Shown here piece by piece: positions 1,183-46,156 of a stretch of DNA of 64,000 bases. Below the pieces are notes generated by a model. The model made no database searches. It was not told where the DNA came from and saw nothing but the letters and a program-made list of their open reading frames with translations. The stretch's first letter is position 1. Every line of letters starts with the position of its first letter. The position numbers and the translations under genes are program-made. This DNA is from Candidatus Acidulodesulfobacterium acidiphilum (GTDB taxonomy: Bacteria > SZUA-79 > Acidulodesulfobacterales > Acidulodesulfobacteraceae). The stretch spans positions 1-64,000 of the forward strand of contig SHMQ01000009.1 in NCBI GenBank assembly GCA_008534395.1, read 5' to 3'.

Positions 1183-3306
1183 TTAATAATACAGTTTTGT
1201 TTTATCGTTATAGTAAAATTTACTTCTACCTTTAATTTTATTGTAATATATCACGTTTCCGTTTTTAATGGAATTCAAAAAATCTTCTGTTTCGTTAAAA
1301 TTATAAGCAATATTCATATTTAACGAAATTTTGGTAAATATATCGGTTAAATTATATCTGTAAATGCCAAAATTAAATTCGTTATTAACGTTTACAATTT
1401 TACCTTCGAAATTTTCATAATATGTATTTTCTTCCTCCAAAAAGTCTTTGACCGGCATAACCACATCCGCCATAGCAGACAAAAGGCTCGTTTTAGAAGA
1501 AAAAACGGTTAAAAATTCTAAATTGGAACTGTAGCGTATTATTTCTTTTCCGTAATCGTCGTCCTGCAAGTCTCCGATATATACGAGATTTTTAATTCTG
1601 CCTTTATCCATGCCTTCTATTATTTCTTTAAAACTGTAGGCATCGTCTAAAGGATAAACGCCTGCATGTAACAACCCTCTATAGTTTGAAGACTTAATTA
1701 GAGGAAACAAATAAACCGACTTTTCCAGCTCACGTAGAAATTTAACAATTTCCTGCAATATTAAAAAATCATTACTCATATTCATAGAAGACATTATGGA
1801 GTCGCCAATTACAAAAGATATACAACCTGCATCCGATATAACTTCTACGATAGATTTGCATACTTCGTCCATATCGGTTTGTTCTTTATGCAAGCCCATT
1901 TTCATTTTATTTAAATATGTATTAAAATAAGAACCGTCAATATCTTTTTTAGAGCAGGCAACGTCCTCAAATCTGGAAAAAGAACGAACTTTTTCTGCTT
2001 TTCCCGTTTTTGGATTTACTATAAAAAGTCTTCCTCCATGCTCTCTGCGCGTTTTTAAAATATCATATGCCGCAAACGGAATCTCATCTTCTATACTGCC
2101 AAAATATAATATAACTTCAGAATTTTTAATATCGTTTATATTAAAATTTTCTTCGGTGGGAAATAATTTTTTAAAATCAAATAAATTTTTTCTATATAGT
2201 TCTGAAGCGGCAATATCAAAATTCTTTATTTTTAAAGTATTCTTAATAAATTCTAAAGATGCTTTACCAGCGTTAATTGAAATATTCGGCGAAATCAAAA
2301 CAGCTAAAGTCTCTTCTGCTTTATTAGCTTGAATAGCCTTCATTTTCAGACCAAACTCTTCTGTAGCTTTTTCTAACACAACTTCTTCCAATACAGTTTT
2401 TTTCTTGATATATGGATTAGCAATATAATAACTTTCGCAATCGCCGTTAATTGCAGGATAGAAAAAACCGGATTTGCAAAGATATCCTCCGAAAGGGGCA
2501 TCCGTCCTGACTAAAGATTCATCGTGCGCGTATCTGTAATATTCTATTCTGCAGGCAGCCGAACATTTATCGCAAATCGACGAAAACGGATTTTCCTGCC
2601 AGTATCTTTCTTTAAATTTTGAAGGTTTTGAAACTAATGCGCCTACCGGACATACTTCAACGCAGTTGCCGCAATAATAACAGTCTAAACGGTCTGGTTC
2701 AACGGAAATTTCTTCAAAAGAACAGCCTTCCGCCGGTTTAGAGCCAAGCTGTGTTTTAGTGTCGGTTTTAAGTCCTATATAACCGTTATTCCCCTTGTCT
2801 TTCATCTGAAGAAACGGATTGCCGTACATATCGCCGCAAACTCTGATGCACCTAGAACACAAAACGCATCTTGTGGCATTATATTCTATCAAATCGCTTT
2901 TAAAAATTTTAGTCCTATCCGGATAAATTTTTTTATCTTTTTGAGTAGTTACCTTGAATTCAAAAGTTAAATCCTGTAAAAGACAGTCTCCTGATTTGTC
3001 GCAGACGGGACAGTCAAGCGGGTGATCCAATAACAGTTGCGAAATAAGTTCTTTTCTTATTTCCCATAATTTTTCTGTTTCAGTATATATTTCGTATCCT
3101 TCTTTAACTTTGGCGACGCAAGAAGGCAGAGGATTTTTTAAGTCTTTAACTTCCACGACGCAAACTCTGCATGAACCTATAGGTTTGATTCTCTTTAGAT
3201 AGCACAAAACCGGTATTTTGATTCCCGCTTGAGAGGCAGCTTCTAAAATAGTCAACCCTGACTGAGTTATAATTTTTTTTCCGTTTATAGTAATTTCTAT
3301 ATCCAT
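1183..3306 (-). CDS. nuoG: NADH-quinone oxidoreductase subunit G
   Basis: This 707-residue iron-sulfur subunit belongs to the peripheral arm. An N-terminal ferredoxin domain has 2Fe-2S ligands C35, C46, C49, C63. The His-ligated 4Fe-4S cluster follows (H95, C99, C102, C108), then two ferredoxin-like motifs at C147/C150/C153/C157 and C209/C212/C215/C219. A further CxxC group (C245, C248, C252, C277) opens the molybdopterin-oxidoreductase-like domain. The remainder is a divergent, probably cofactor-free molybdopterin fold. NuoG wires electrons from the input subunit to NuoI and NuoB. The extra ferredoxin-like pair is as in NuoG/HydA-type proteins of anaerobes. It lies 9 bases after the NuoF/GltD fusion, its presumed electron donor. 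Confidence 0.93.
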   Translation of the reverse strand: MDIEITINGKKIITQSGLTILEAASQAGIKIPVLCYLKRIKPIGSCRVCVVEVKDLKNPLPSCVAKVKEGYEIYTETEKLWEIRKELISQLLLDHPLDCPVCDKSGDCLLQDLTFEFKVTTQKDKKIYPDRTKIFKSDLIEYNATRCVLCSRCIRVCGDMYGNPFLQMKDKGNNGYIGLKTDTKTQLGSKPAEGCSFEEISVEPDRLDCYYCGNCVEVCPVGALVSKPSKFKERYWQENPFSSICDKCSAACRIEYYRYAHDESLVRTDAPFGGYLCKSGFFYPAINGDCESYYIANPYIKKKTVLEEVVLEKATEEFGLKMKAIQANKAEETLAVLISPNISINAGKASLEFIKNTLKIKNFDIAASELYRKNLFDFKKLFPTEENFNINDIKNSEVILYFGSIEDEIPFAAYDILKTRREHGGRLFIVNPKTGKAEKVRSFSRFEDVACSKKDIDGSYFNTYLNKMKMGLHKEQTDMDEVCKSIVEVISDAGCISFVIGDSIMSSMNMSNDFLILQEIVKFLRELEKSVYLFPLIKSSNYRGLLHAGVYPLDDAYSFKEIIEGMDKGRIKNLVYIGDLQDDDYGKEIIRYSSNLEFLTVFSSKTSLLSAMADVVMPVKDFLEEENTYYENFEGKIVNVNNEFNFGIYRYNLTDIFTKISLNMNIAYNFNETEDFLNSIKNGNVIYYNKIKGRSKFYYNDKTKLYY

Positions 3307-3315
3307 AATGATGTC

Positions 3316-5247
3316 CTAATCCTCAAACTTAACAAGCATAAGATAATAGCACCTCATACATCTTGTCGCTTCGTAAACCGCATCGTCGTTCGTAAATCCT
3401 TTATCTGCTTCTTCAAAACTTTTTATACGTTCTTTCACCGGCTTAATTATCTGTTTAGGCGCAAAATTTCCAGGTGGCATATCTGCATTTTTAATTACTT
3501 CGTTTTTATCGTAAACGCCTATAGCCTCAAATAGATTTTCAAAGAGACAGTCGTCTGTCGGAGTAAAAGTTCCTGTTCTTATGTATTGGTCAATTCTTCT
3601 GGCTGCGTTTTTTCCGTCTCTGTTTGAATCGACTATACTTATAGGTCCGGTTAATGCGTCGCCTCCTGCAAAAACACCCGGCATATCCGTCATAAACGTA
3701 AATTTGTCTGCTGCGATTGTTCGTCCTTTAATTATGTTTATTTCAGGTACGTCTTTTAAACAATCGAAATCCGGCACCTGACCTATTGCCATAATAAAAT
3801 CATCCGTTTCTATATCAAAATCGGAATCAGGTATTTCAATAGGGCTTTTCCTTCCGCTTGCATCTTTTTCTCCAAGCTTCATTCTTCTGCATCTTACGCC
3901 TGTAACTCTGCCGTTTTCATAAAGAATAGCAGTCGGATTAGTCAAAAATTCAAACTTAACTCCTTCTTCTATTGACGTTTCAAGTTCGTCGTATGCCGCA
4001 GGCATCTCTTCTTTACTTCTTCTGTAAACTACGGTAACGTCTTTATACCCTATCCTTACAGCCGTCCTGCAGCAATCTATAGCGACGTTCCCGCCTCCTT
4101 CTATAATAACTTTTTTACCTATATCGATTTTTTCTCCAAGATTAACCTTTCTTAAAAATTCTACTCCGTCGAAAAAGCCTTTCAAATTATCGTTTTCGCC
4201 GGGCAGATTAATATTCTGTCCTAAATGCGCTCCTATTCCAAGGAATATGGCTTTAAATCCCTGTCCGAAAAGCTCTTTTATAGTAAAATCTTTCCCGAGT
4301 TTGCTGTTTAACTTATATTCTATTCCTGTGGAAAGTATATAACCTATTTCCGCATCTAAAAAATGTTTTGGAAGCCGAAATTTAGGAATTCCAACGTTCA
4401 TCATACCGCCAAGGACAGGAAGAGCTTCAAATATAATAGGTTTATACCCCATTAATCTCAAGTAATAAGCGCAGCTTAAACCTGCGGGACCAGAACCGAC
4501 TATAGCAACCTTAATATTATTATCTTTTATTTTAAAATCAGGTTTGTGATTAGAATAAAAAACTTCGTCTGCCGCAAATCTTCTTATTAAACAAATTTGA
4601 ATAGAATCGTCTATATTTGCCCTGCGACAGTTATCCTGGCACGGATGAAAACATGTTCTTCCCAATATTCCTGCAAGCGGCGTGTTTCTTCTTGCCGACT
4701 GCAAGGCGTCTTCATACCTGCCGTCCCTGACTCTTTCTATCCAGTTAGGTATATCCAATTTTGAAGGACATCCGTTAATACAAGGTGCGGTGACGTGAGA
4801 TATATAGTCGCCTCTTTTTATTATTTCTTTATTTTTTATTACTTTTTCAAAGTCTTCCCTGTAATTATCTATAAGCTCTACTACCGAAGTGGGTCCTATA
4901 GTTCCTACGGTACACTTAGAAGAAGACATAATCCAGTCGCACTGGTTCTTCAACCTATCAAGATCTTCAATTATGGCTTTTCCGCTGCAAATATTTTCTA
5001 AAATTTCCGACGCTACTGCAGTTCCGTGCGAGCAAGGAGTGCACACTCCACATGATATTTTCTGCAGTTCCTGCATATAACATCTGGCAAGGTCAACCTT
5101 ATTATCATTTTCGTCCAATAAGGCAACACCCGTCCAGTTTAATACAGACGATATTTTTTTATGACCTGAGCGTTCAAAAAATTTCAGGTCTAACCTGTCG
5201 CTTAATTTGTCTATTATTTTCATAATTAATTTATTTTTATCTGTCAA
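3316..5247 (-). CDS. Complex I electron-input subunit: NuoF C-terminal Fe-S domain fused to a GltD-like flavin oxidoreductase
   Basis: The protein has 643 residues. Residues 60-115 match the C-terminal cluster-N3 domain of NuoF (CGVCTPC at 66-72, fourth ligand C112). The NuoF FMN/NADH-binding domain and SLBB domain are absent, and no nuoE is in the operon. From about 150 the protein is a GltD-type oxidoreductase: Cys-rich domain (C156, C160, C199, C203, C207), FAD-binding GSGPAG at 251-256, and pyridine-nucleotide motif GGGNVAID at 384-391. By inference the GltD part oxidises NAD(P)H with FAD and passes electrons through N3 to NuoG. It overlaps nuoD by 11 bases. The start is uncertain: TTG at 5247, or ATG at 5223 (MKIIDKLS), neither with a strong ribosome site. 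Domain calls are secure; the donor specificity is not known. Confidence 0.88.
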   Translation of the reverse strand: MTDKNKLIMKIIDKLSDRLDLKFFERSGHKKISSVLNWTGVALLDENDNKVDLARCYMQELQKISCGVCTPCSHGTAVASEILENICSGKAIIEDLDRLKNQCDWIMSSSKCTVGTIGPTSVVELIDNYREDFEKVIKNKEIIKRGDYISHVTAPCINGCPSKLDIPNWIERVRDGRYEDALQSARRNTPLAGILGRTCFHPCQDNCRRANIDDSIQICLIRRFAADEVFYSNHKPDFKIKDNNIKVAIVGSGPAGLSCAYYLRLMGYKPIIFEALPVLGGMMNVGIPKFRLPKHFLDAEIGYILSTGIEYKLNSKLGKDFTIKELFGQGFKAIFLGIGAHLGQNINLPGENDNLKGFFDGVEFLRKVNLGEKIDIGKKVIIEGGGNVAIDCCRTAVRIGYKDVTVVYRRSKEEMPAAYDELETSIEEGVKFEFLTNPTAILYENGRVTGVRCRRMKLGEKDASGRKSPIEIPDSDFDIETDDFIMAIGQVPDFDCLKDVPEINIIKGRTIAADKFTFMTDMPGVFAGGDALTGPISIVDSNRDGKNAARRIDQYIRTGTFTPTDDCLFENLFEAIGVYDKNEVIKNADMPPGNFAPKQIIKPVKERIKSFEEADKGFTNDDAVYEATRCMRCYYLMLVKFED

Positions 5248-7008: not shown

Positions 7009-7521
7009 TTAATATTTTTTATTGCTGTCTATATGTAATTTAGGCGGCTCTTCATGCTTTAAAGTGCCTTTTTCTATTTTTTCTTGAAGTTTTACTATTC
7101 CGTAAATAAGTGCTTCCGGACGCGGTGGGCAGCCTGGTATATATACATCTACAGGAATAATAGTATCGACACCCTGAACAATACTGTAAACATTAAAAAG
7201 ACCACCCGAACATGCACAGTCGCCCATTGCAATAACCCATTTAGGATTAGGCATCTGATCGTAAACTCTTTTAACCATCGGTGCCATTTTATATGAAACT
7301 CTGCCTGATACTATTATTAAATCCGACTGTCTTGGACTTGACCTGAATATTAAACCCAATCTGTCGAAATCGTATCTTGATGATGCAACCGTCATCATTT
7401 CTATAGCGCAACATGCAAGCCCGAATGTTGCAGGCCATATCGACCATTTTCTGCCCCAAGAAACAATTTTATCCAATGAAGCGGTAATTATATTATCGCC
7501 GAGATGCTCTTCTATTCCCAT
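7009..7521 (-). CDS. nuoB: NADH-quinone oxidoreductase subunit B
   Basis: This 170-residue subunit carries cluster N2, the last Fe-S centre before quinone. The four ligands are visible: the tandem pair C37-C38 in [12 protein letters not shown]102 in [12 protein letters not shown], and C131 in [13 protein letters not shown]. Its start overlaps the end of nuoA by 10 bases, so the two are probably translationally coupled. Length and sequence are typical. Confidence 0.97.
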
Positions 7522-7892
7522 TTAAGCGCTCCTTTTAACCATACGTAAAGCAGACCGATTACTAAGATTACTATAAATAAAAACATTTCTACAAACCCAA
7601 GTATTCCAAGATGCGAAAATATAACCGCCCAAGGAAACAGAAAAAGGGCTTCTATATCGAAAAGAAGAAAAAATATAGCTATTAGATAAAACTTTACGTC
7701 GAATTTAACGTGGGGTTCGCCGGTCGGCTCGACGCCACATTCATATGCTTTTAATTTGCCGGACTCATATGTCTTTTTTCCGATAAAATTAGATATTAAA
7801 ATGGTAAAAACCGCAAATATAATTGCTATAACAAGCATTATAAATATGGGCAGAAAAGAAATTAAACCGTTATTGTTTATACTATTATTCAT
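7512..7892 (-). CDS. nuoA: NADH-quinone oxidoreductase subunit A
   Basis: This 126-residue protein has three membrane segments. It shows the ND3/NuoA signature loop [44 protein letters not shown] (split here by domain, reading ECGVEPTG and [14 protein letters not shown]). It is part of the membrane arm near the quinone cavity. It is the first gene of the nuo operon. No clear Shine-Dalgarno sequence precedes the ATG at 7892. The 151-base upstream gap carries the likely operon promoter and a perfect palindrome. Confidence 0.95.
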
Positions 7893-7938
7893 TTAATTAA
7901 TAGTTAAGATCATATAGTTTAATGTTATTAATCTAAAC

Positions 7939-7970
7939 TTTTTGAGTATATCATATGATATACTCAAAAA
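7939..7970. promoter_or_regulatory. Perfect 32-bp palindrome upstream of nuoA (possible operator)
   Basis: TTTTTGAGTATATCAT is followed directly by its exact reverse complement, giving 16-base arms with no spacer. It lies between pepA and nuoA and covers the spacer and -10 of the candidate nuo promoter. Such symmetry suits a dimeric regulator. A cruciform or terminator is less likely, because there is no GC-rich stem with a following T-run. Confidence 0.6.
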
Positions 7971-7974
7971 TCAA
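7945..7974 (-). promoter_or_regulatory. Candidate sigma-70 promoter of the nuo operon
   Basis: On the minus strand, TTGATT (7974-7969) and TATACT (7950-7945) are 18 bases apart, a fair match to -35 and -10 boxes. Transcription would start near 7938, about 45 bases before the nuoA ATG. The boxes fall in and beside the 32-bp palindrome at 7939-7970. The region is very AT-rich, so a chance match is possible. Confidence 0.45.
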
Positions 7975-8043
7975 GTTATAAAATTATAATTTATAAAAAA
8001 AATTTAAATAAATATATACATATGCATATATTTATATTTACTA

Positions 8044-9609
8044 TTATAATTTATGCTGATTTAAATAATAAAGTAAAGTCCTCACTCCGACCCCTGTACC
8101 GCCCTTTGGATTATAATTAAAACCCGTTTTGGTAAAAGCAGGTCCGGCTATGTCTATATGACACCATTTAGCCTTATCGGGAACGAATTCTTCCAGAAAC
8201 ATTCCTGCCGTAATCGCCCCGCCGTATCTGTTGCCTACGTTTTTTAAATCTGCAATCGGACTTGAAAGTTTTTCCTTCATGTTATCGTCGAAAGGAAGTT
8301 CCCACATTCTTTCTCCGGTAATTTGGCTTACCGATATTATATTGGATATGAGGTCTTTATCGTTTCCCATAACTCCGGAAGTGTATTCTCCAAGCGCAAT
8401 TACGCAAGCTCCTGTTAAGGTAGCAAGGTCTATAATTTCGTCAACGCCTAACTCCGACGTGAAACTTAAAGCGTCCGCCAAAGTCAGTCTACCTTCAGCA
8501 TCCGTATTATCTATCTCTATAGTCTTGCCGTTTAAAGCCTTAACTATATCGTCGGGTCTTTGCGCTCCGCCGTCGGGCATATTTTCGCAAGCCGCAATAA
8601 TACCGTGAACTTCTAACTCTAAATCGAAATTTTTAATATGCTTCATAATACCGAGCACGGTGCAAGCCCCCGATTTATCGCTTTTCATGGTAGTCATAAA
8701 ATCAGCCGGCTTCAACGAAAGTCCTCCGCTGTCGAAAGTAATGCCTTTTCCGATTAAGGCGATTTTTTTGATATTTTTACTCTTAGGCTTATTTTTCGGC
8801 TTATACGTTAAATGAATAAATCTTGGAGGGTTTTTAGAACCGCGCGCTACTCCGTAAAATGCATTCATTCCTTTTTTGATTATCTCTTTTTCGTTAAATA
8901 TTTCGCAATCTAAACCGCTTTCTTTAGATATTTTCGTTGCTAAATCTGCTAAATATTCGGGGGTTACGACGTTACCCGGCTCATTTACTATATCGCGAGC
9001 AAAATTAGCGGCAGACGCCGTTTTTTTACCGAAATCAAAACCTTCATCTGCAGTTTTAAGATTATCCTTAGAAGCTTTTAAGCCGTTAAAATGAATATTT
9101 ATAACTTCAGGGTATTTTTCATCCTTGCCTGTTTTTGCCTTTCCTTTATCGATTAAAGCGCTAGACATATATTTTTTAAACTCGTACAAACCTAATTCGG
9201 CTCCCTCCGATATTGCCGCTGCCGAATAAAATAATCCTTTCTTTATATAGTATTCGCCGCTTAATTCCGGTATTATTACCGTTATTTCATAAGATTTGTT
9301 TGTCTTAGCAGTTTTAGCCGCCGCCGCAATAAAACTTCTTAAAGAGTCGTAATTAAATTTGTCCTTTTTATCTAATCCGTAAATTAATGAATAAACAGGG
9401 GATTCTATAAGAACGCTCTTTCCTTTTTTTGCTTTAAAATCTAAGCGTTTAAGTCTTTTATAAATAAATTCTAACTTCTTAAAATTTCCAGATTTTAAAA
9501 AACTATTTTCTTCTCCCTGAAAAACTCCAAAAACAAAAATATGATTTAATTCGCCTGATTTGCTTTCAGATAAGTTTTTATCGATTGAATCTGTTATTTT
9601 AAACTTCAT
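8044..9609 (-). CDS. pepA: Leucyl aminopeptidase (peptidase M17)
   Basis: This 521-residue cytosolic aminopeptidase has the M17 metal-site signature NTDAEGRLTLADAL and the catalytic lysine region GKGITFDSGGLSLKP. The N-terminal half is the variable macro-like domain of the family. It removes N-terminal residues from peptides using two metal ions and usually forms a hexamer; some relatives also bind DNA or process Cys-Gly. It lies 25 bases after acs and is probably co-transcribed with it. Length is normal, and the ATG at 9609 has a GGAGGG ribosome site (complement of ccctcc just upstream). Confidence 0.93.
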   Translation of the reverse strand: MKFKITDSIDKNLSESKSGELNHIFVFGVFQGEENSFLKSGNFKKLEFIYKRLKRLDFKAKKGKSVLIESPVYSLIYGLDKKDKFNYDSLRSFIAAAAKTAKTNKSYEITVIIPELSGEYYIKKGLFYSAAAISEGAELGLYEFKKYMSSALIDKGKAKTGKDEKYPEVINIHFNGLKASKDNLKTADEGFDFGKKTASAANFARDIVNEPGNVVTPEYLADLATKISKESGLDCEIFNEKEIIKKGMNAFYGVARGSKNPPRFIHLTYKPKNKPKSKNIKKIALIGKGITFDSGGLSLKPADFMTTMKSDKSGACTVLGIMKHIKNFDLELEVHGIIAACENMPDGGAQRPDDIVKALNGKTIEIDNTDAEGRLTLADALSFTSELGVDEIIDLATLTGACVIALGEYTSGVMGNDKDLISNIISVSQITGERMWELPFDDNMKEKLSSPIADLKNVGNRYGGAITAGMFLEEFVPDKAKWCHIDIAGPAFTKTGFNYNPKGGTGVGVRTLLYYLNQHKL

Positions 9610-44919: not shown

Positions 44920-45015
44920 CGCAGAATTGAATTCTGGCTTTCCATTTTGATACAGTGCCAGAATTGAATTCTGGCTTTCCATTTTGTGACGGTGCCAGAA
45001 TTGAATTCTGGCACC
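44920..45015. repeat. Tandem array of REP-like palindromes, 37-bp period
   Basis: Three palindromes of the form GCCAGAATTGAATTCTGGC (9-base arms, one central base) begin at 44922, 44959 and 44996, exactly 37 bases apart. The connectors, CTTTCCATTTTG followed by (A/T)(T/G)AC(A/G)GTG, are nearly identical. The first copy lacks its outer C and the last ends in ACCG. The array fills the gap between prfB and lysS. The unit also occurs singly, inverted, at 41286-41320. Confidence 0.9.
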
Positions 45016-45021
45016 GTAATA

Positions 45022-46156
45022 TTATGCTCTTACGCCCAACAGATATGCGCTTATAAATTCGTCGATGTCGCCGTCAAATACACTTTTATCGTCGTATATG
45101 GTGACCCCAGTCCTGTGGTCTTTAATGACTCTGTTTGGGTTGAGGGTATAAGACCTTATCTGCGAACCCCAAGATATCTCTTTTTTTGTTTTGTTTACCT
45201 TATCTTCTTCCTCTTCCTGCTTTTTTTTGTAATAGTCGTAAAGTCTTGCCCTTAAGAGTTTATATGCCGAATCTTTGTTTTTATGCTGAGACCTTTCGTT
45301 TTGACAAGCTACTACTATGCCTGTCGGGATATGTGTCAGCCTGACGGCTGAATCGGTAGTATTGACGTGCTGTCCGCCTGCTCCGCTGGAACGGTAAGTG
45401 TCTATTTTAACGTCTTTTTCGTCTATAACTACGTCGATAGAATCGTCTATCTCGGGATAAACGAATACGGAAGCAAAAGACGTATGCCTTCTTTTATTTG
45501 CATCGAAAGGAGAAATCCTTACTAATCTGTGAACGCCGCTTTCCGCCTTAAGATAACCGTAGGCATATTTACCGTGGACGGTAAAAGTAACGCTTTTTAC
45601 TCCAGCTTCTTCGCCTGCATTAAACTCCATTATTGCCGTTTTAAATTTTCTGCGCTCCGCCCACCTTAGATACATTCTTAAAAGCATATTTGCAAAATCC
45701 ATGGATTCGGTACCGCCAGAACCTGCATGAATTTCCACTATAGCATCTAGTTTGTCGTCTTTTCCGGAAAGAGTAGTATCCATTTCTAAAGAGGATACGC
45801 TTTTTTCTAAAGATTTTACGCCGGCGAAAATTTCTTCTAGCATTTTTTCGTCATTTTCTTCTATAGAAATATCGTATAGGTCTTTTATGTTTTTAAACTC
45901 TTCGTAAACGGAATAAAAAGTTTTAATCTTATTTTCAATAGCCGATTTTTCTATCAATATTTCCTTAGAATAGCTTATATCTTTATAAAAATCTTCTTTT
46001 GAAGAAATTTCTTCTATCTCTTTTAGTCTTTTTTCGGAAATATCTACTTCAAAGCGCCCTCCGCAGTTTTTCTAATTTTTCTTCGAGGGTTTTCAGGCTT
46101 CTTTCCAAAAAACTTACGTTAAAAAGCGAATCGCTCTGTGCTGAAGCTATAGACAT
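45022..46156 (-). CDS. prfB: Peptide chain release factor 2 (programmed +1 frameshift)
   Basis: Two overlapping frames make RF2. Frame one is 46156-46052 (35 codons, starts MSIASAQSD, good GGAGG ribosome site) and meets an in-frame TGA at 46051-46049. Slipping one base onward reads GAA from 46050 and continues unbroken to TAA at 45022, giving about 377 residues. The protein has the peptide anticodon SPF in RISPFDANKRRH and the GGQ motif SSGAGGQHVNTTDSAVR. RF2 ends translation at TGA and TAA. The frameshift lets RF2 level control its own synthesis. The TTG near 45957 is not the real start. Confidence 0.95.
46049..46063 (-). promoter_or_regulatory. prfB +1 frameshift site
   Basis: The minus strand reads CGGAGGGCGCTTTGA. 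An internal Shine-Dalgarno-like GGAGG lies 3-4 bases before the slippery CTT codon, which is followed by TGA with A as next base. This is the same architecture as E. coli prfB (AGGGGGTATCTTTGAC). Confidence 0.95.

Follow-up and report, generated by a model that had tools for sequence, protein, structure and literature searches.

The 64,000-nucleotide stretch of the Candidatus Acidulodesulfobacterium acidiphilum genome analysed here (the window) carries, over the promoter of its nuo operon, a perfect 32-bp palindrome whose inverted symmetry exceeds chance. The element resembles an operator, but when the sister species are compared, an origin by the copying of one arm onto the other is no less likely. 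We hold, with a confidence about midway between doubt and acceptance, that the -10 region may have been mirrored in place by template switching during replication, in which case the palindrome would be passive and a regulator unnecessary. The species comparison also suggests that the mirrored -10 copy comes and goes among close relatives, and it serves as a warning against calling operators from symmetry alone.

On the minus strand, pepA is followed by a 151-nt gap and then by nuoA, nuoB and further nuo genes (Table 1). A promoter scan of this strand found TTGATT (7974-7969), an 18-nt spacer and TATACT (7950-7945), preceded by TG in the extended position. Both the spacer and the -10 lie within the palindrome, whose end is near the inferred transcription start; the interval 7939-7974 given in the first-pass annotation corresponds to the palindrome plus the -35 hexamer. 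The scan returned 7 promoter-like sites against 5.4 +/- 2.6 in shuffled sequences, which proves nothing alone, and it was conservation within the genus that provided the better evidence and made the promoter credible. By eye, a TTGATT-like hexamer (TTGACT in G008, TTGCTT in G002) was followed after 16-18 nt by a -10-like hexamer with TG ahead in 14 of 14 genus loci upstream of nuoA, namely 13 loci plus that of G010, with G007 and G013 left out as they had no NuoA match. Elsewhere in the family, the three g5 loci shared this pattern with the g3 locus, g4 was similar and g6 weaker, and in the seven g2 loci it was not clearly seen. The relatives compared were metagenome-assembled genomes (MAGs), one genome per species. 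The promoter that the first-pass annotation had placed under the palindrome was thus recovered, and it is believable as an ordinary sigma70-type extended -10 promoter conserved in the genus. Within the same gap, the second palindrome, behind pepA, is perhaps a weak pepA terminator; it is not listed by the terminator scan. Its length varies in the sister species, and other DNA was found in its place in G014.

Table 1. Features of the pepA-nuoA region (positions in the window)
Feature	Position	Strand	Basis
Perfect 32-bp palindrome, two 16-nt arms without spacer	7939..7970	none	Repeat search, sampled-genome statistics
Arm with extended -10	7939..7954	-	1/16 columns variable in six species
Promoter-spacer arm, inverse of the other arm	7955..7970	-	6/16 columns variable (one an indel) in six species
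-35 hexamer TTGATT	7969..7974	-	Promoter scan; kept in genus by eye
Extended -10 TG-A-TATACT (TATAAT in G012, G002, G014)	7945..7953	-	Promoter scan, sister-locus comparison
Expected nuo leader, start about 7938	7893..7938	-	Start inferred from -10 distance; leader conserved in six species
nuoA, first gene of the nuo operon	7512..7892	-	PF00507, E 2.4e-36
pepA, M17 aminopeptidase, upstream gene	8044..9609	-	PF00883, E 2.4e-121
Second, imperfect, almost purely A+T palindrome behind pepA, then minus-strand T run	8009..8040	-	Repeat search

The two exact arms without a spacer described in the first-pass annotation were confirmed by repeat search, the arms being 100% complementary with 0 nt between them. 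How far such symmetry departs from chance was judged on a sample of 418,201 bases (G+C 0.354), composed of the 64,000 of the window and 20 further stretches of its genome that total 354,201. This sample held 13 perfect palindromes with arms of at least 11 nt and a loop of 0-2 nt, the longest of which was the one on the nuo promoter (arm 16), and the next two (arm 14) were REP-like. No arm above 12 nt appeared in 20 first-order Markov redraws of 42,098 intergenic bases, and a chance origin of the 32-bp palindrome was rejected on these grounds. As had been stated at first pass, it does not resemble the REP-type repeats found at 44922-45026 of the window. A REP or mobile element was rejected since the palindrome is single-copy, its inner 26 bases had no exact match in viral contigs, and the promoter spacing is unchanged relative to the sister loci; this spacing, 17-18 nt in the six species that carry the palindrome and 16-18 nt in the genus, indicates that nothing was inserted. 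Dispersed REP-like palindromes with the core CAGAATTGAATTCTG were observed in the genome itself and in sister species, at 44922-45026 of the window, at 1215-1259 of locus L041 and in loci L043, L156 and L164.

Among the 30 family genomes compared, the pepA-nuoA gap matched over most of its length, or over its promoter half, in six. An identical palindrome was found in the source genome (G000), G010 and G005, three species about 7-9% apart in the DNA around nuoA, and G012, G002 and G014 retained 14/16 Watson-Crick pairs in the same register, with a spacer one base shorter in G012. The palindrome was not seen in 21 of the 26 family loci read (G010 lies outside these 26), including that of G015, the next relative by NuoA identity. 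The first-pass annotation had tied its proposal to the presence of the palindrome in close relatives, and the comparison divides on this point: beyond the six closest species it is absent, and within them it is perfect in three and keeps 14/16 pairs in the other three.

The two arms differed in how they vary (Table 1). Nowhere in the promoter-leader region was variation higher than in the spacer-side arm. The leader up to the ATG varied at 4/49 columns; comparison of the spacer-side arm with the leader gave a Fisher p of 0.011, and with the -10 arm a p of 0.083, which is not significant. In the 40 columns upstream, 13 were variable in the six species and 4 when G014 was left out. At fourfold-degenerate sites of nuoA, 12/45 columns were variable (five species), and the spacer-side arm varied no less, from which it follows that this arm probably drifts at a near-neutral rate and that the -10 arm is held.

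A single pair of alignment columns, 10 and 27, was altered on both sides, with G-C in G000, G005 and G010 and T-A in G012, G002 and G014, so that the paired change on the -10 reads TATACT versus TATAAT. The same was reached in 124 of 500 shuffles, and with 4 distinct sequences this is a weak statistic. The DNA tree of the nuo side (seven genomes, without G010) joined G000 to G002 with a support of 99, against the G-C/T-A split, and the promoter-only tree grouped G002 with G012 (68). This conflict would be accounted for either by one paired change with exchange of promoter DNA or by two such changes, and the trees leave both.

In the first-pass annotation the geometry was taken for that of a repressor operator, by which a single dimeric regulator would govern the whole respiratory complex. 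Bound to the palindrome over the spacer and the -10, such a repressor would block RNA polymerase and so control the nuo operon. Dimeric repressor operators over sigma70 promoters are symmetric and lie over the spacer and the -10, and the nuo palindrome is like them in symmetry and position. Its length and symmetry beyond chance, its place over the promoter, the paired T-A/G-C difference and the 14/16 pairs kept by the imperfect versions in three sister species are all consistent with such a hypothetical regulator. Unlike these operators, the palindrome is present in a single copy and its spacer-side half-site is not conserved: upstream of the orthologues, it was perfect in 3/6 species and the spacer-side half varied at 6/16 columns. 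The further copies that would have made up a regulon were also not seen, since the source genome held no second copy within 3 mismatches. A looser pattern allowing 2 mismatches, searched in 61 relatives, matched in the nuo gap of 4 genomes and at four further sites that are not palindromes, and it missed G002 and G014. A single-target regulator would need no further genomic sites. The geometry described at first pass was borne out in symmetry and position, and the operator drew no support from half-site conservation or recurrence in the genome; it is weakly plausible, and we consider it possible but rather doubtful.

A regulon defined by a looser core was likewise rejected. With 2 mismatches allowed, the 16-base core had 19 sites in the source genome against 9 for the reversed control, and 10 of the 19, nuo included, were put in context (L181-L190). 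Three of these lay in reading frames (L182, L187, L190) and one at a gene start (L184), three held single boxes of the TATGATATA type (L183, L185, L189), and two were longer palindromes of other sequence (L186, L188). A pattern search with a set spacer length gave 3 matches, one of which was the nuo site.

Palindromes of other sequence were found both on this promoter in the genus and elsewhere in the source genome. In G009, a different palindrome of 47 nt, with 23-nt arms and a 1-nt loop, spans the nuo promoter and leader (locus L048, 2948-2994) and consists of TGTATCATATGGTATATTTTATA, one base and the exact inverse. G011, G004 and G001 have less DNA than G009 between the -10 and the leader, both of which are conserved, so the right arm of the G009 palindrome looks like an added inverted copy. 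When up to 3 mismatches were allowed, G009 held one more site for the arm sequence, which had 2. Across 13 family nuo loci (L040-L052; 81,098 bases), the only perfect palindromes whose arms reached 11 nt were the two promoter ones and two REP-like ones. A longer perfect palindrome occurs in the source genome outside the 418,201-base sample (L186 1490-1527, near 104870 of contig C5). It measures 38 bp, has arms of 19 nt, is unrelated in sequence and contains only two bases other than A or T. The two genes that flank it are both read from the minus strand, one being bipA/typA-like and the other encoding a carbon-nitrogen hydrolase. A minus-strand promoter-like match, TTGTAA-17-TACAAT (9/12), overlaps this palindrome and is one of 2 sites in the stretch against 1.3 expected; the bipA/typA gap may thus have the same promoter-palindrome geometry, although the match is weak. 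Together with the one in G009, this palindrome indicates that long A+T-rich palindromes are not peculiar to the nuo site. In the nuo promoter of G001 (L010), the extended -10 stretch TTCATATGATATAT was found twice in tandem.

We return to template switching, the most likely of the origins considered, which would account for the perfection, the paired change and the turnover without a regulator. During replication, a switch at a quasi-palindrome would copy one arm onto the other, and in the six-species group the extended -10 would in this way have been mirrored into the adjoining spacer. Such arm copying would both perfect the palindrome and make its arms change together, and RNA polymerase would use one arm, leaving the other as spacer DNA under little constraint. 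Two studies describe the process: template switching makes quasi-palindromes more perfect in Escherichia coli (PMC7202029) and homogenises the arms of short inverted repeats in yeast, in one example with 16-bp arms (PMC8604942). The nuo site resembles the products described there, from the E. coli reporters and from yeast, in being a near-perfect short inverted repeat with imperfect versions in relatives and one pair changed on both sides, and differs from them in lying on a conserved promoter and in that the event is deduced from sequence (PMC7202029, PMC8604942). This mechanism predicts imperfect versions at the corresponding site of relatives, and such versions were found in G012, G002 and G014; the single copy, the unchanged spacing, the conserved -10 arm beside a variable spacer arm and a T-A/G-C pair such as arm homogenisation would give also point to it, as do the added-looking inverted copy of G009 and the unrelated palindrome with 19-nt arms in another gap. 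Against it, the two-sided change fits selection on symmetry equally, and the perfect form is common to three species 7-9% apart and so is not merely fleeting. Moreover, PMC8604942 cites earlier work in which the short inverted repeats of proteobacterial non-coding DNA tended to be better conserved than the sequence around them. In general this would speak for function; at the nuo site, the spacer arm is less conserved than the leader.

The presence of two different palindromes on the same promoter in one genus also counts against template switching and could mean convergent function. It would then be supposed that two lineages of the genus each acquired a -10 palindrome on their own, of 32 bp here and of 47 nt in G009, as the symmetry was useful, with the -10 box serving as a half-site for a fast-evolving single-target dimeric regulator or within a supercoil-sensitive cruciform, which we judge unlikely. 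Cruciform extrusion is conceivable for any perfect A+T-rich palindrome that lies on a -10, and a cruciform or supercoiling sensor at the nuo promoter itself could be proposed on this general ground; nothing specific in the data points to it, the palindrome is imperfect in 3/6 species, and we regard it as scarcely credible. An element acting at the RNA level, in which a hairpin in read-through transcripts from pepA would serve for termination, end protection, processing or attenuation, is quite improbable, albeit favoured by a fold that is very stable for its composition (-15.8 kcal/mol, z -6.1). A loose scan listed the palindrome as a minus-strand terminator-like site with 14 pairs and the tail GTTTAGATTA; the kilobase held 2 sites of this kind, and shuffled sequences 0.7 +/- 0.8. 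The stem, however, is A+T-rich (3/14 pairs G-C), no run of more than three T follows it, and the long T run stands before the stem. In addition, the nuo transcript would start past the palindrome, and an Rfam family was rejected, with no match in 7500-8400 up to E 1.

The palindrome also puts TG-A-TATACT on both strands, from which a symmetric bidirectional promoter might be imagined, with an extended -10 in each arm and RNA polymerase firing both ways. This likeness to bidirectional promoters with a symmetric -10 does not extend to their layout, since these most commonly share one -10 and have starts 18, 10 or 23 bp apart (PMC10268837, PMC12825309), and the nuo site has two separate -10s (7950-7945 and 7959-7964) with inferred starts 33 bp apart. 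The opposite-strand -10 is degraded in G014, its TG is lost in G012 and G002, and the scan listed no plus-strand promoter using it; such firing is very unlikely. Promoters of the G000, G002 and G014 types provide a clear test set for whether symmetry over the -10 box matters.

Other observations concern the genes downstream and one of the core-site loci. After nuoD, the minus-strand gene at 3316-5247 of the window joins the NuoF iron-sulfur region (PF10589) to a GltD-like pyridine nucleotide oxidoreductase (PF14691, PF07992), and its protein had no Pfam match to the NuoF flavin domain. According to PMC6776010, nuoE, nuoF and nuoG were not found in four Candidatus Acidulodesulfobacterales bins; taken with the fusion, this suggests that complex I may receive its electrons in an unusual way. 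The minus-strand gene at 1183-3306 encodes a NuoG-like protein of 707 aa, of which Pfam recognises only the N-terminal iron-sulfur domains. At 395-3011 of L190 (contig C10 of the source genome), a reverse transcriptase of 403 aa (PF00078) is encoded by a gene of its own directly after those for Cas1 (PF01867) and Cas2 (PF09827).
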